This document shows positions 16,985-57,607 of a stretch of DNA of 64,000 bases, piece by piece. How positions within the stretch are numbered: the first letter of the stretch is position 1; every line of letters starts with the position of its first letter. The position numbers were made by a program, and so were the translations under genes. The notes under the pieces are model-generated. The model had not been told where the DNA came from and did no database searches. It saw only the letters and a program-made list of their open reading frames with translations. Source of the stretch: an uncultured Romboutsia sp. (GTDB taxonomy: Bacteria > Bacillota > Clostridia > Peptostreptococcales > Peptostreptococcaceae); contig CAJFPU010000002.1 of assembly GCA_904418825.1 (NCBI GenBank), positions 1 to 64,000 of the forward strand, read 5' to 3'.

Positions 16985-17252
16985 ATTAATTTAATAATTA
17001 AAAAATGGCAATGAAGAGGAAGAGTAAAATAGAAACAATTAAACAGAGAGGATAAACCATAGGCTGGAAGTTTATCTTAATATGACTATTTGAAAACTAC
17101 CTTAGAGCTGAACTTATTAGCATTTATAAAATGTGAAAGTGTTCGGGTGACAACCTTATAGTCATCAAGAGGAAGTATTTAAATACTTCAACTTGGGTGG
17201 AACCGCGAATTAACACTCGTCCCAATATATTTATTTGGGATGAGTTTTTTTA
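16985..17252 (+). promoter_or_regulatory. T-box leader of thrS, likely specifier ACC (17099-17101)
   Basis: AGAGAG element, T-box TGGGTGGAACCGCG (17194-17207), terminator ACTCGTCCCAATATATTTATTTGGGATGAGTTTTTTT. Confidence 0.92.
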
Positions 17253-25438: not shown

Positions 25439-25499
25439 AAGTTGTTAATTACATATTTTATATGTTATAATTATGTAAAAAACTATATTTAAAAATACA

Positions 25500-25742
25500 A
25501 TGAAAGAGAAAAGTATTTTGAACTAACTTAGCACAGAGAGAAGTACCTAGGCTGAAAGTACTTTATAAGAATTCAAAAGAAGTTCGCTCTGGAGTATTAA
25601 AGCTGAAATTAATAGTAGGCTTTAACGTTAAAACGCGTTAAGTTTATTTGAGGTGGTTTAAAATTTATAATTTTAGACTACTAGGGTGGTACCGCGAAAC
25701 AATAGTCTTTCGTCCCTAGATTGGGATGAAGGGCTTTTTTTA
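25500..25742 (+). promoter_or_regulatory. T-box leader of pheST, likely specifier TTC (25583-25585)
   Basis: GAAGTTCGCTCTGG specifier region, T-box AGGGTGGTACCGCG (25683-25696), terminator CGTCCCTAGATTGGGATGAAGGGCTTTTTTT. Confidence 0.93.
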
Positions 25743-47299: not shown

Positions 47300-47569
47300 T
47301 AAATAATAATTTAGAATATGAAAATTTTTATATTTATGTATTATTTACGAATACTAATATTATATGATTAGTTAAATTTTTACTATAAATTGAAATTAAA
47401 TAACACTAATTATTAATACCTATACTAAAAAGAAGATAAAAGAAAAATTTTATTATTCTTAATACAATCTTATTATATATATAAATTATAATATAGCTTA
47501 AGAAATAAAAAATAACTTATTGATATTATATATAATAATATGGTATATTATTTTAATATGACAACTAAA

Positions 47570-47735
47570 AAATATTATAGATGCTTACAACGTAAGTTAA
47601 AAGGGAAAAAGGTTAAAATCCTTTGCAGCACCCGCTACTGTAATGTGGACGAAAGTTTCAAACCACTGTGAATATTCATGGGAAGGGAAATTAGTAGGAT
47701 GAAGCTAAGCCAGGATACCTGCCTATAGTATATAG
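47570..47735 (+). promoter_or_regulatory. Cobalamin (B12) riboswitch
   Basis: GCAGCACCCGCTACTGTAATGTGGACGAA core and B12-box-like AGCCAGGATACCTGCCT (47708-47724). Confidence 0.92.
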
Positions 47736-47808
47736 AAATTCTTCGGGGATGGGGAATGTTCTTATTTATAATATATAGTAAAGTTGTATTATTATATATG
47801 TTTGTATA

Positions 47809-52246: not shown

Positions 52247-54289
52247 ATGATAAGTATAGATAAATTAAATGAAAATCAATTAAAGGCCGTAGAACATGTA
52301 GATGGACCTTGTATGGTACTTGCAGGACCAGGTTCAGGAAAGACTAGAGTTATAACATATAGAATAGCAAATATGGTTGTAAACAAAGATATAAAGCCTA
52401 CGAGCATACTTGCAATAAGTTTTACAAAAGCATCATCGATGGAAATGAAAAATAGAGCATTAGCTTTAAGTAATGATTTTAGAATGAATAAGGTTACATA
52501 TGGAACATTTCATTCTGTATTTTTTAGAATATTAAGATATTTTGAAAATTATAATATAGAAAGTATCTTGGATGAAAAAACAAAGAGGATTGGGCTAAAA
52601 AATATATTAAAAGGGTTGAATATAGAAAATGCAGATGATGATGAAACTATTGGACAAGTTATAAATGAAATTTCATATGTGAAAAATGAATTGATGGATA
52701 AAAGAGATTTTAAATCAGAGGTATTGACTAGTGATGAGTTTATAAAGGTATATAATTACTATGAAGAATATAAAGAGCAAATTAATAAGATAGATTTTGA
52801 TGATATGTTAATCAAGACATATGAATTATTAAAAAATAATAAATCGGCTTTAGATAGAGTTAGAAGTGCATATAGATATATTCTTGTAGATGAGTTTCAA
52901 GATATAAATAAGGTTCAATTTGAAGCATTGAAATTAATAGCAAATCCAAATAATAATATATTTGTAGTAGGAGATGAAGATCAAAGTATATATGGATTTA
53001 GAGGATCTAGACCAGACTTTTTATTAGAATTTGAAGAATATTTTTTAAATACTAATAAAGTATTATTGGATATTAATTATAGGTCTAAAGGTGAGATAAT
53101 AGATATAGCTAATAGATTAATAGAGAAAAATGAAAATAGATATGAGAAAGTTATAAAATGTGGCCAAGGTAACGGAGCAAATGTAAATTATATTTCGCCT
53201 GAGGATTCAGAGGAAGAAGCAGTATATATAGCAAAAGATATAAAAAATAAGGTTCAAGAAGATTATACAGAGTATACTGATTTTGCTGTAATATATAGAA
53301 CTAACATACAATCAAGAGCGTTAGTTGATGTATTTATGGATATGAGAATACCGTTTGTAGTTAAGGATTCAATAGTTACAATATATGATCATTGGGCAGC
53401 TCAAGATATACTTTCGTATTTAAAGATAGGTGTTAATCCAAATTCTAATAAAGATTGGATCAGAATTATAAATAAACCTTTTAGATATATATCTAAAGAT
53501 AATTTAAATTTAATAAAGGATGAACCTGATTTTATAAATGCTTTGATAAATAAATGTGATTTACATCCAAAGCAAGTTAAAACTATAAATGATTTAGATA
53601 TAGATATAAGTTATGTAAAGGGGCTTAATCCTAAAAATGCAATATCTTATATAAGAACAACTTTAGATTATGATAGATATATTTTGGATTATTGTACTAA
53701 TAGAAAAATAAAGACTAATGGGCTTATTGAAATATTAAATGAACTTGAAAGTTCAGCTACTAACTTTAAAACTATACAAGAATACTTAGATCATATAGAA
53801 AGAGTAAAATCTGAGATAGTAGATAATAAAAATAACAAGGAAACAGATGGTGTTATTTTTACAACTATGCATAGTGCAAAAGGATTAGAGTTTAAAAATG
53901 TTTATATAATAGGTGCTAATGAAGGTACAATACCACATGAAAAATCTTATGAAATAGATGATGAAGAAAAGAAAAATGATCAAATTGAAGAAGAAAGAAG
54001 ACTTATGTATGTAGCAATAACAAGGGCTGAAGAGAATATATGTATAAGTTCTCCGATTAATAAGTATGGCAAAAGGGTTTCAAAATCAAGATTTGTGGAA
54101 GATATAAAGGCTCCAACTAAAAAAGAAATGGATAGTATAACTATAGGAGATAAAATATATCATAAAAAATTTAAAGAAGGTATTATAGTAGAAAAGAATG
54201 GTGATTCTATAAAAATTAGATTTAAAGATGTAGATAGAGTGTTAAATTCAAAAGTATGTTTAACAAAAAGAATAATATGGAAAATATAG
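52247..54289 (+). CDS. UvrD/PcrA-type ATP-dependent DNA helicase
   Basis: LAGPGSGKTRVITYRIANM; VDEFQDIN; VGDEDQSIYGFRGS; TMHSAKGLEFKNVYIIG; RRLMYVAITRA. Confidence 0.95.
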   Translation: MISIDKLNENQLKAVEHVDGPCMVLAGPGSGKTRVITYRIANMVVNKDIKPTSILAISFTKASSMEMKNRALALSNDFRMNKVTYGTFHSVFFRILRYFENYNIESILDEKTKRIGLKNILKGLNIENADDDETIGQVINEISYVKNELMDKRDFKSEVLTSDEFIKVYNYYEEYKEQINKIDFDDMLIKTYELLKNNKSALDRVRSAYRYILVDEFQDINKVQFEALKLIANPNNNIFVVGDEDQSIYGFRGSRPDFLLEFEEYFLNTNKVLLDINYRSKGEIIDIANRLIEKNENRYEKVIKCGQGNGANVNYISPEDSEEEAVYIAKDIKNKVQEDYTEYTDFAVIYRTNIQSRALVDVFMDMRIPFVVKDSIVTIYDHWAAQDILSYLKIGVNPNSNKDWIRIINKPFRYISKDNLNLIKDEPDFINALINKCDLHPKQVKTINDLDIDISYVKGLNPKNAISYIRTTLDYDRYILDYCTNRKIKTNGLIEILNELESSATNFKTIQEYLDHIERVKSEIVDNKNNKETDGVIFTTMHSAKGLEFKNVYIIGANEGTIPHEKSYEIDDEEKKNDQIEEERRLMYVAITRAEENICISSPINKYGKRVSKSRFVEDIKAPTKKEMDSITIGDKIYHKKFKEGIIVEKNGDSIKIRFKDVDRVLNSKVCLTKRIIWKI

Positions 54290-54705: not shown

Positions 54706-55698
54706 TTAATAATATATCCCTTTTTCAAAAAAATCTTTTATTTCATCCAAATTATTAGTCTTTCCAAGTGCTAACATAAGTTTTATTCTAGCTTTTTGAC
54801 CTGGAAGTTCTCCACCAAATATACATCCGATATTTCTTAAATCTCTACCAGAACCTAAATAACCATAGCTATCGAAAACTCTACCTGAATGACATCTAGA
54901 AACTATAACAACAGGTATATCTTTTTCTCTAGCGTATTTTATACCATCATACATTTTAGGAGGTACATTACCTCTACCCATTGCTTCAATTACAATTCCT
55001 TTATAACCACTATCAGCTGCAAATTTAATAAAATCTTCATTCATTCCAATTCCAGATTTTATTAAAGCAACCTTTGATTCAACTATATCAGTATCTATTA
55101 TAGTTCTAGCTTCTGTATTTTTAAATATTACCAACTCATTACAATCAATTATACCTATTGGACCTTTACTTAATGATTTAAACGTATTTAAAGCTAAAGT
55201 ATCAGTTTTAGTTGCTTCAGAAGCTAATAAAACTTCATTATTTAAAACTATAAAAACACCTTTACCAATAGCTTTATCTGATATAGCTGTACAAACTGCA
55301 GCAGATAAATTGCTAGGGCCATCATATCCAAGTTCAGAGCTACTTCTCATAGCACCTGTAACTATAACTGGTTTTTGACTAGATATAGTTAAATCTAAGA
55401 AATAAGCAGTTTCTTCTAAACTATCAGTACCATGAGTTATAACAGCACCACAGATATCTTCTCTTTCTAGTAAATTATTAATATAATGTTTTAATTCTAT
55501 TAATTTTTCTGGTGTCATATGAGGTCCAGGTATTTCTGAAAAATTAAATACTTCAATAGCTGCAACTTTATCTATATTTGTAACCATTGACATTATTTGT
55601 TCTCCTGATAGAGTAGGAATAGCTGCTCCAATGTTTTCATCTACTGTCATAGAAATAGTACCACCAGTAAATATTATAGCTACTTTTTTCTTGTTCAT
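54706..55698 (-). CDS. ansA: L-asparaginase
   Basis: IFTGGTISMTVDE; GAVITHGTDSLEETAYFLDLT; GAMRSSSELGYDGPSNL; start ATG after GGTGGGTGAT. Confidence 0.93.
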   Translation of the reverse strand: MNKKKVAIIFTGGTISMTVDENIGAAIPTLSGEQIMSMVTNIDKVAAIEVFNFSEIPGPHMTPEKLIELKHYINNLLEREDICGAVITHGTDSLEETAYFLDLTISSQKPVIVTGAMRSSSELGYDGPSNLSAAVCTAISDKAIGKGVFIVLNNEVLLASEATKTDTLALNTFKSLSKGPIGIIDCNELVIFKNTEARTIIDTDIVESKVALIKSGIGMNEDFIKFAADSGYKGIVIEAMGRGNVPPKMYDGIKYAREKDIPVVIVSRCHSGRVFDSYGYLGSGRDLRNIGCIFGGELPGQKARIKLMLALGKTNNLDEIKDFFEKGIYY

Positions 55699-55833
55699 TA
55701 TAATATCACCCACCTTTTTATATTAAAAACAGGTAAAACTGTTTTAGATTTTGTCGTATAAACACATTTATAATGTATATTTATATAAATTATATCAAAA
55801 AAAAACTATATAAGTCTATAATTAAAAAAATAT

Positions 55834-55972
55834 AAAAAAAGAGCTTGGGGAAGCTCTTTTTCGCTAAATTGACTTCCGTTGTCAACTTAACAATAATGGA
55901 TATAAAGTCTATCCGTTCAAAAGGGGTATTGGGAATAGAGATTTTAATTAAGGTTATCAGGGGGATAACCAT
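55834..55972 (-). ncRNA. Candidate sRNA copy B
   Basis: Minus strand: TTGATT-N17-TATTAT (56007-55979), 5' hairpin GGTTATC-CCCCT-GATAACC, C-rich stretch ATTCCCAATACCCC, terminator GAGCTTCCCCAAGCTC-TTTTTTT. Confidence 0.75.
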
Positions 55973-56015
55973 GTATTAATAATAACAAAGTTCGACATTA
56001 AAATCAATAGTTTTT
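55921..56015. repeat. Direct repeat unit 1 of the tandem sRNA locus
   Basis: About 95 bp, near-identical to 56111-56205. Confidence 0.95.
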
Positions 56016-56045
56016 CAAAAAAATATAAAAAATTTAAAAATACAA

Positions 56046-56161
56046 AATAAAAAACCTACTTCGAATCCGATCGTGAAGTAGGCTATAAATGAATATAAAT
56101 TATTCATTTAAAGGGGTATTGGGAATAGAGATTTTACTAAGGTTATCAGGGGGATAACCAT
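56046..56161 (-). ncRNA. Candidate sRNA copy A
   Basis: Minus strand: TTGATT-N17-TATTAT (56196-56168), GGTTATC-CCCCT-GATAACC, ATTCCCAATACCCC, terminator CCTACTTCACGATCGGATTCGAAGTAGG-TTTTTTATTTT. Confidence 0.78.
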
Positions 56162-56205
56162 GTATTAATAATAACAAAGTTCGACACCAAAATCAATAGT
56201 TTTTT
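56111..56205. repeat. Direct repeat unit 2 of the tandem sRNA locus
   Basis: Near-identical to 55921-56015. Confidence 0.95.
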
Positions 56206-56455
56206 ACAAAAACATCAAAAATATTACATTTTATATAGTATAAATATTTTTTTTACGTAGTGAAAAATTTAATTTATACTATTACGTTATTATATGTTAA
56301 AAAATAAAAAATTTAATGATATAATAAATAGATACGATTTTATAAATAATAGTTATTGAAATTGAAATTTTAATATTTTTGATAATTAATAGATTAAGTT
56401 GGTAAAAATAAAATAAATAATAAAATCTATATAATAGAGAAAGTTGGTGCAATGT

Positions 56456-57607
56456 ATGGATATATATTTAGATAACAGTGCTACAACGAAGCCATATAAA
56501 GAAGTTATAGATAAAATGGTTTATGCACTTAGCACAGACTATGCTAATCCATCTTCTTTACATAGAAAAGGTATAGAAGTTGAAAAGAATATAAAAAATA
56601 TAAGACAAAATATAGCTAGAACTCTAGGTGCAAAAGATAAAGAAATATATTTTACATCTGGAGGAACAGAATCTAATAACACTATAATAAGAAGCGTTGT
56701 TTCTTTAAATAAGAAAAGAAAGAATCATATAATATCTACTACGATAGAGCATCCATCAGTATTAAATACTTTAAAGGATTTAGAATCTGAAGGGTGTGAA
56801 GTTACATATTTAGAAGTTGATAAAGAAGGAAGAATAGATATAGAAGAGTTCAAAAATGCATTAAAACCTACAACTTGTCTTGTTACAATAATGCATGTTA
56901 ACAATGAAGTTGGAAGTATACAACCAATACAAGAAATAGGTAAGCATCTTAAAACATTAAAAGATAAAGTATATTTACATGTAGATGCTGTTCAATCTTA
57001 TACTAAGATAAATTTTAAACCATCAAAATATAATATAGACTTTATGAGTGTAAGTGGTCATAAATTCCATGGTCCAAAAGGAATAGGATTTATGTATATT
57101 AAGGAAAATAACAGAATAAAGCCTATTTTAACTGGTGGAGGACAAGAAATAGGAATAAGATCAGGAACAGAAAATACACCAGGTATATATGGCTTAGGAG
57201 AAGCTATAAGAATAATAAATGAAGAATTAGATGCTAAAATAGAAAATATGAAAAATCTAAGAGATTTATTAAAAAAAGAAATAACTGAAAACATAGAAGA
57301 TATAAAGTTGAACTCTCCAGAAGATGGAGTTTGCCATATATTAAATGTTACTTTTTATGGAATAAAAGGAGAGGTGTTACTTCATTATCTAGAGCAAAAA
57401 GGTGTATATGTATCTACTGGTTCAGCTTGTTCATCTAAGAAAAAAGGTAGTCATGTATTAAATGCCATGGGACTTTCTCCACAAGAAATAGAAGGAGCAA
57501 TAAGATTTAGTTTATCTGATTTAAATACAGAAGAAGAAATAAAAGAAGCTGTTAAAATAGTTAAAGAATCTGTAAGTGATTTGAGAATGATAATGAGAAG
57601 AAGATAA
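56456..57607 (+). CDS. Cysteine desulfurase (NifS/IscS family)
   Basis: YLDNSATTKPYKEV; FTSGGTESNN; SVSGHKFHGPKGIGF; STGSACSSKKKG. Confidence 0.95.
   Translation: MDIYLDNSATTKPYKEVIDKMVYALSTDYANPSSLHRKGIEVEKNIKNIRQNIARTLGAKDKEIYFTSGGTESNNTIIRSVVSLNKKRKNHIISTTIEHPSVLNTLKDLESEGCEVTYLEVDKEGRIDIEEFKNALKPTTCLVTIMHVNNEVGSIQPIQEIGKHLKTLKDKVYLHVDAVQSYTKINFKPSKYNIDFMSVSGHKFHGPKGIGFMYIKENNRIKPILTGGGQEIGIRSGTENTPGIYGLGEAIRIINEELDAKIENMKNLRDLLKKEITENIEDIKLNSPEDGVCHILNVTFYGIKGEVLLHYLEQKGVYVSTGSACSSKKKGSHVLNAMGLSPQEIEGAIRFSLSDLNTEEEIKEAVKIVKESVSDLRMIMRRR

Follow-up and report, generated by a model that had tools for sequence, protein, structure and literature searches.

Tandem C-rich small RNA genes of Romboutsia belong to an order-wide family with a putative Spo0A box in the promoter

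Between the asparaginase gene ansA and a cysteine desulfurase gene of an uncultured Romboutsia sp. lies a short duplicated region, and the question that it raises is what is made from it and under whose control. A sequence-only reading of the 64,000-nt stretch of DNA analyzed here (the window) had proposed a pair of sibling small RNA (sRNA) genes with C-rich motifs. Conservation past the genus level is uncommon among sRNAs of Gram-positive anaerobes, and how entry into sporulation is gated in clostridia lacking the classical phosphorelay is an open question.

The duplication itself, described earlier as a unit of about 95 bp in copies 190 bp apart, was recovered as two direct repeats, one of 27 nt with 100% identity (55920-55946/56110-56136, 190 apart) and one of 91 nt with 91% identity (55943-56033/56132-56222, 189 apart). 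An ORF check found no competing credible CDS at the sRNA locus, as had been claimed. The two predicted genes, A (56196-56046) and B (56007-55834), promoters included, lie in tandem on the minus strand. Each has a promoter of the sigma-A type, a 5' hairpin whose loop reads CCCCCU, a segment UCUCUAUUCCCAAUACCCCUUUU that is unpaired, and a terminator. The features are as follows.

56444 to 57607, plus strand: cysteine desulfurase gene, the conserved divergent neighbor (synteny across families)
56168 to 56196, minus strand: promoter of sRNA A, with -35 TTGATT (56196-56191), putative 0A box TGTCGAA (56186-56180), and extended -10 TG-T-TATTAT (56173-56168)
56046 to 56161, minus strand: sRNA A (type A), predicted length about 115 nt (fold z -5.26; homologs; covariation)
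Parts of sRNA A, minus strand: 5' hairpin 56159-56141; C-rich single strand 56130-56113; hairpin 56109-56087; terminator 56082-56055 plus T-run
55979 to 56007, minus strand: promoter of sRNA B, with -35 TTGATT (56007-56002), putative 0A box TGTCGAA (55997-55991), and -10 TATTAT (55984-55979)
55834 to 55972, minus strand: sRNA B (type B), predicted length about 138 nt (fold z -6.64; terminator scan)
Parts of sRNA B, minus strand: 5' hairpin 55970-55952; C-rich single strand 55940-55923; third hairpin segment 55918-55895; AACGGAA-loop hairpin 55888-55866; UUCCCC-loop terminator 55861-55836
55789 to 55818, minus strand: separate promoter TAGACT-18-TATAAT with TG, predicted past the terminator of sRNA B and ahead of ansA (consensus match only)
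54706 to 55713, minus strand: ansA, asparaginase, the conserved downstream neighbor of the sRNA locus (synteny across families)

The promoters that had been proposed (-35 TTGATT, -10 TATTAT, 17-nt spacer) are indeed there, with an upstream TG in addition, and so is the 5' hairpin GGTTATC-CCCCT-GATAACC in both copies. Both predicted transcripts fold far better than shuffled sequences (z of -5.3 for A and -6.6 for B, 0/200 shuffles being as good). The third hairpin fared less evenly: the difference between the copies, AATGAATA/TATTCATT in A and AACGGATA/TATCCATT in B, comprises one compensatory change and one mismatch, as had been noted, but the segment pairs as proposed only in the predicted fold of A, while the minimum-energy fold of B favors an alternative pairing. 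The copies also end in different terminators, each followed by a T-run; that of B was detected by a terminator scan, and that of A, the loop of which exceeds the length limit of the scan, is backed by folding. The fourth hairpin of B (55888-55866) had not been described before. The motif CGGA(A) is shared by hairpin loops of the sibling types A, B, and C (window 55888-55866 and 56082-56055; type C loops).

A comparison with relatives showed strong conservation of structure. Among 107 homologs (76 distinct sequences), the 5' hairpin covaries throughout: for every one of its seven pairs, at least one sequence has both partners changed, and 98.7% of the cells still pair; 0/500 shuffles reached any of these measures, and slid controls gave 0 to 1 such pairs. 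The loop of this hairpin remains C-rich among the homologs. The most conserved segment of all is the linker UCUCUA(U/A)UCCCAAUACCCCUUUU, which is unpaired in most of the predicted folds. Several segments of each RNA are C-rich, namely the 5' hairpin loop CCCCCU and the unpaired UCUCUAUUCCCAAUACCCCUUUU, to which B and many homologs add a terminator loop with CCCC.

How far does this RNA extend? By blastn, homologs were found in 50 of 61 related genomes (G003 is of the same genus as the window genome), and a covariance model built from the first 63 positions of the RNA matched in 141 of the 220 genomes of the order. In a survey of the class (342 genomes), all the strong matches fell within the order, with the single exception of one genome (G197, 84 bits); weak matches outside the order (G264, G371, G388, and G340; below 32 bits) were set aside as chance ones, since they lack the hairpin and the CCCC segments. 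A search of Rfam 15 with the window copies gave no match at E values up to 10 except for one chance match, and none above a gathering score, so that a known Rfam family, which the earlier reading had left as a possibility, was rejected. A literature search with the core sequence likewise returned no relevant report and a single unrelated paper. Judged by these sequence comparisons, this appears to be a real RNA family, ancient within one order (Peptostreptococcaceae and related families) and absent from Rfam. Elsewhere in the window, Rfam models matched on the plus strand: RF03531 (n00280), a Clostridioides difficile sRNA inside a helicase gene, at 53960-54060 with 66.9 bits, barely over its gathering score, and two T-box leaders and a cobalamin riboswitch at 17002-17227, 25491-25720, and 47562-47740.

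Within family f1 the sRNAs are of three types. Type A has the terminator CCTACTTC..GAAGTAGG; type B, present in more f1 genomes than either of the others, has an extra AACGGAA-loop hairpin and the terminator AGAGCTTCCCC; and type C has GGTTATTCCCCTAATAACC followed by several CCCC segments, with GATCGG as its terminator loop. The third sibling of the window genome, a divergent one of type C overlooked until now, lies elsewhere, on contig C5 (about 1500-1667 of the examined piece). Type C copies face a Ser/Thr kinase-like gene in convergent orientation, and most have a ferredoxin gene nearby. Paraclostridium benzoelyticum carries three tandem copies of the sRNA. A homolog is also present in a genome (G019) that is presumably C. 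difficile, very likely so to judge from its Spo0A sequence.

Each of the two window promoters contains a perfect TGTCGAA, the sequence of the 0A box to which Spo0A binds, which had escaped the earlier reading; this box and the order-wide distribution of the family are what is new here. When promoters outside family f10 were aligned, TGTCG formed a separate conservation peak in the spacer, beside the -35 and the extended -10, its columns reaching 1.3 to 2.5 bits while the flank toward the -35 was near background and that toward the -10 weakly conserved. TGTCG alone is strict; the AA after it is kept in roughly one half to two thirds of the promoters. The pattern TTG-N7-TGTCG-N8-TATNAT occurred 33 times in 15 genomes, 28 of them at these sRNA siblings. 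In two genera an MFS-type transporter gene (G000:C27:7251-7279) has the same -35/TGTCGAA/-10 arrangement and is a possible further Spo0A target. The affinity of C. difficile Spo0A for TGTCGAA drops about ten-fold upon a change of G2, C4, or G5 (PMC3485338), and all three bases fall within the conserved TGTCG.

The box also follows Spo0A across genomes, which together with the retention of G2, C4, and G5 points to a genuine 0A box. Calling a box when at least six of seven positions matched and the contacted bases were kept, we found that 55 of 72 promoters carry it where Spo0A is canonical, against about 1.7 expected from shuffling, but only 3 of 31 where Spo0A is absent or divergent (P = 3e-10, uncorrected for ancestry). 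Within family f10 alone the figures were 9/15 and 0/24, respectively (P = 2e-5, shared ancestry ignored). Promoters devoid of the box or of Spo0A retain a near-consensus -35 and -10. There are exceptions: G047 and G058 have a box without a Spo0A_C match, G005 and G026 have Spo0A without a box, several f10 genomes with Spo0A show no clear box, and G053, an incomplete genome, also departs from the association. Across the order, sRNA and Spo0A were found together in 120 genomes, sRNA only in 21, Spo0A only in 14, and neither in 65 (P = 3e-23, uncorrected for phylogeny). Genus g5 (G007, G027, and others; about 2 Mb) lacks both the sRNA and Spo0A (9/9 sampled) as well as Hfq (2/2 tested).

The explanation that we favor, with a probability of roughly two in three, is that A and B are independently transcribed, noncoding, trans-acting sRNAs that mask Shine-Dalgarno (SD) sequences through their C-rich segments and whose dose is tied to Spo0A~P, more likely by repression than by activation. 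The proposal of sibling trans-acting sRNAs is the best supported one, by the order-wide homologs, the seven-pair covariation, the conserved C-rich segment, and the preserved promoter and terminator architecture. Both genes have their own predicted promoter and Rho-independent terminator and no conserved ORF, and the downstream gene is not fixed, being ansA, a convergent glnQ, a convergent kinase gene, or others. Transcription would start at the strong sigma-A-type promoter carrying the Spo0A box, so that the dose of the RNA would follow Spo0A~P. The C-rich segments would then pair with G-rich SD regions of several mRNAs and block their translation, probably in the manner of LhrC; being several in number, with one placed in the loop of a hairpin and another left unpaired, they suit such masking. 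Hfq, found in 52 of the 61 relatives, would often be at hand for this action, although a minority of the sRNA-bearing genomes (G041, G045, G047, G049, G052, and G056) gave no Hfq match.

Could the RNA be something other than a trans-acting sRNA? A cis-acting leader of ansA, an attenuator or riboswitch governing read-through into the asparaginase gene, would account for an arrangement that the window shares with most homologs across several families, in which the RNA, ended by a terminator, immediately precedes ansA on the strand of that gene, and for a gene lying close behind the terminator in some f10 genomes. The context, however, varies: genera g10 and g23 and the presumptive C. difficile genome have as the neighbor a glnQ-like gene in convergent orientation, and type C copies have a protein kinase gene so oriented. 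Each tandem copy, moreover, is equipped with a promoter and a terminator of its own, the stretch from B to ansA contains a separate predicted promoter, and the most conserved part of the RNA is single stranded, with no aptamer-like multihelix core. We rejected the leader on account of the varying context and consider it very improbable. Even less credence can be given to a CsrB-like RNA that sequesters CsrA through its recurrent CGGA loops. All three types, A, B, and C, do have AACGGAA or ATCGGA in loops, and CsrA scored above the family cutoff in 43 of the 61 relatives, but the window genome itself (G000) and its 99%-complete congeners G001 and G002 carry the sRNAs without CsrA, the motif is missing from several f3, f6, and f10 homologs, and what is conserved is the C-rich core. 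With CsrA absent from the genus itself, a CsrA sponge was ruled out as the general function. A small coding ORF was also rejected, because indels among the homologs do not keep the length from the hairpin to the core modulo 3.

The role of the box allows two further readings. Spo0A could activate the family, making it a set of transition-phase sRNAs that repress growth-phase genes. It is established in B. subtilis that Spo0A can activate sigma-A promoters, and in several genomes of f10, as in family f8, the box, sometimes inverted, sits just upstream of the -35, a position befitting an activator. In most families, however, it is inside the -35/-10 spacer, and lineages devoid of canonical Spo0A lose the box yet keep a near-consensus promoter; on both these grounds repression is favored, and activation, though a serious contender, seems unlikely. 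Rather improbable, too, is that TGTCG serves a factor other than Spo0A and that the association reflects shared ancestry only. Such a factor would suit G047 and G058, with their box and no Spo0A_C match, and the strictness of TGTCG alone, the AA being frequently missing. Against it stand the inclusion among the strict bases of those contacted by Spo0A (PMC3485338), the contrast within f10, and the fact that the box shifts position and strand and still tracks Spo0A. We infer that Spo0A binds the box and probably controls the sRNAs.

If the RNAs act by pairing of C-rich segments with SD sequences, as they probably do, spo0A mRNA is a plausible target. Its SD contains GGGGG or a longer run in 26 of 30 sRNA-bearing genomes versus 11 of 36 others (P = 5e-6), the latter comprising 2/9 members of the order that lack the sRNA and 9/27 genomes from outside it; the G-run is therefore not specific. 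Predicted sRNA-spo0A duplex energies were moderately better than background (median rank, 9%). The exact pattern AGGGGTAT before ATG, searched for in 10 genomes, was not in excess over the reversed control, and the single conserved AGGGGTAT-N-ATG match falls within a coding region. A glutamine synthetase-like gene (G000:C36:11220) has AAAAAGGGGTATTATTATG at its start, with 11 nt complementary to the sRNA core, and is a candidate target. In C. difficile, spo0A is repressed at its ribosome-binding site (RBS) by a different sRNA, SpoY (PMC10267692).

With spo0A mRNA among the targets, the sRNAs and Spo0A would be linked by mutual feedback. One may tentatively imagine a mutual-repression switch, a scheme that in its entirety we deem doubtful, in which members of an sRNA family not defined before, and restricted for the most part to one order, would mask the G-run SD of spo0A mRNA and of others until the cell commits itself to sporulation, and Spo0A~P would shut off the sRNAs via the 0A box. 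Since lineages without Spo0A keep the sRNA, its function is not solely a loop with Spo0A, and their strong boxless promoters suggest that the RNA also serves other targets. A conserved sRNA with a Spo0A-tracking box offers an immediately testable circuit, would add a family to Rfam, and could help to read the existing RIL-seq and transcription start site data of C. difficile anew.

It remains to set the family beside known sRNAs. By genomic order, the C. difficile homolog may already be cataloged as an uncharacterized IGR ncRNA (e.g., CD630_n00290), the literature examined on these IGR ncRNAs describing neither the family nor the box nor a function. Firmicute sRNAs with UCCC motifs (the RsaE group of S. 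aureus; RoxS and FsrA of B. subtilis) direct C-rich unpaired or loop motifs against SD sequences; the present RNAs differ from them in sequence and promoter and gave no Rfam match to such families. SpoY (nc020) of C. difficile binds G-rich RBS-like motifs and represses spo0A translation, with Hfq aiding complex formation (PMC10267692), and the C-rich sRNA proposed here would act on similar motifs, perhaps including that of spo0A. SpoY, however, is derived from a 5' UTR, that of CDIF630_00827, sharing its transcription start site with the gene behind it, and identity with it was rejected because no same-strand ORF follows the homolog in the presumptive C. difficile genome. A close likeness is that to the multicopy LhrC siblings of Listeria (RF00616; LhrC1-5, Rli22, and Rli33-1), which have a 5' stem-loop with a CCC loop, a single-stranded CU-rich stretch, and a terminator stem-loop, and bind near ribosome-binding sites (PMC13350326); here, too, two stem-loops joined by a single-stranded CU-rich segment occur in multiple copies. 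The LhrC model did not match the window copies, no homolog tested reached its gathering threshold of 110 bits, and the two f10 homologs that align over the full length scored 26 to 28 bits (E of about 0.6 to 1.5; best, 28.1 bits with E of about 0.6 to 0.8). The family may thus be called LhrC-like by analogy of architecture, homology to LhrC being unsupported by the model scores, and it is distinguished from LhrC by its Spo0A-box promoter and its order-wide range.
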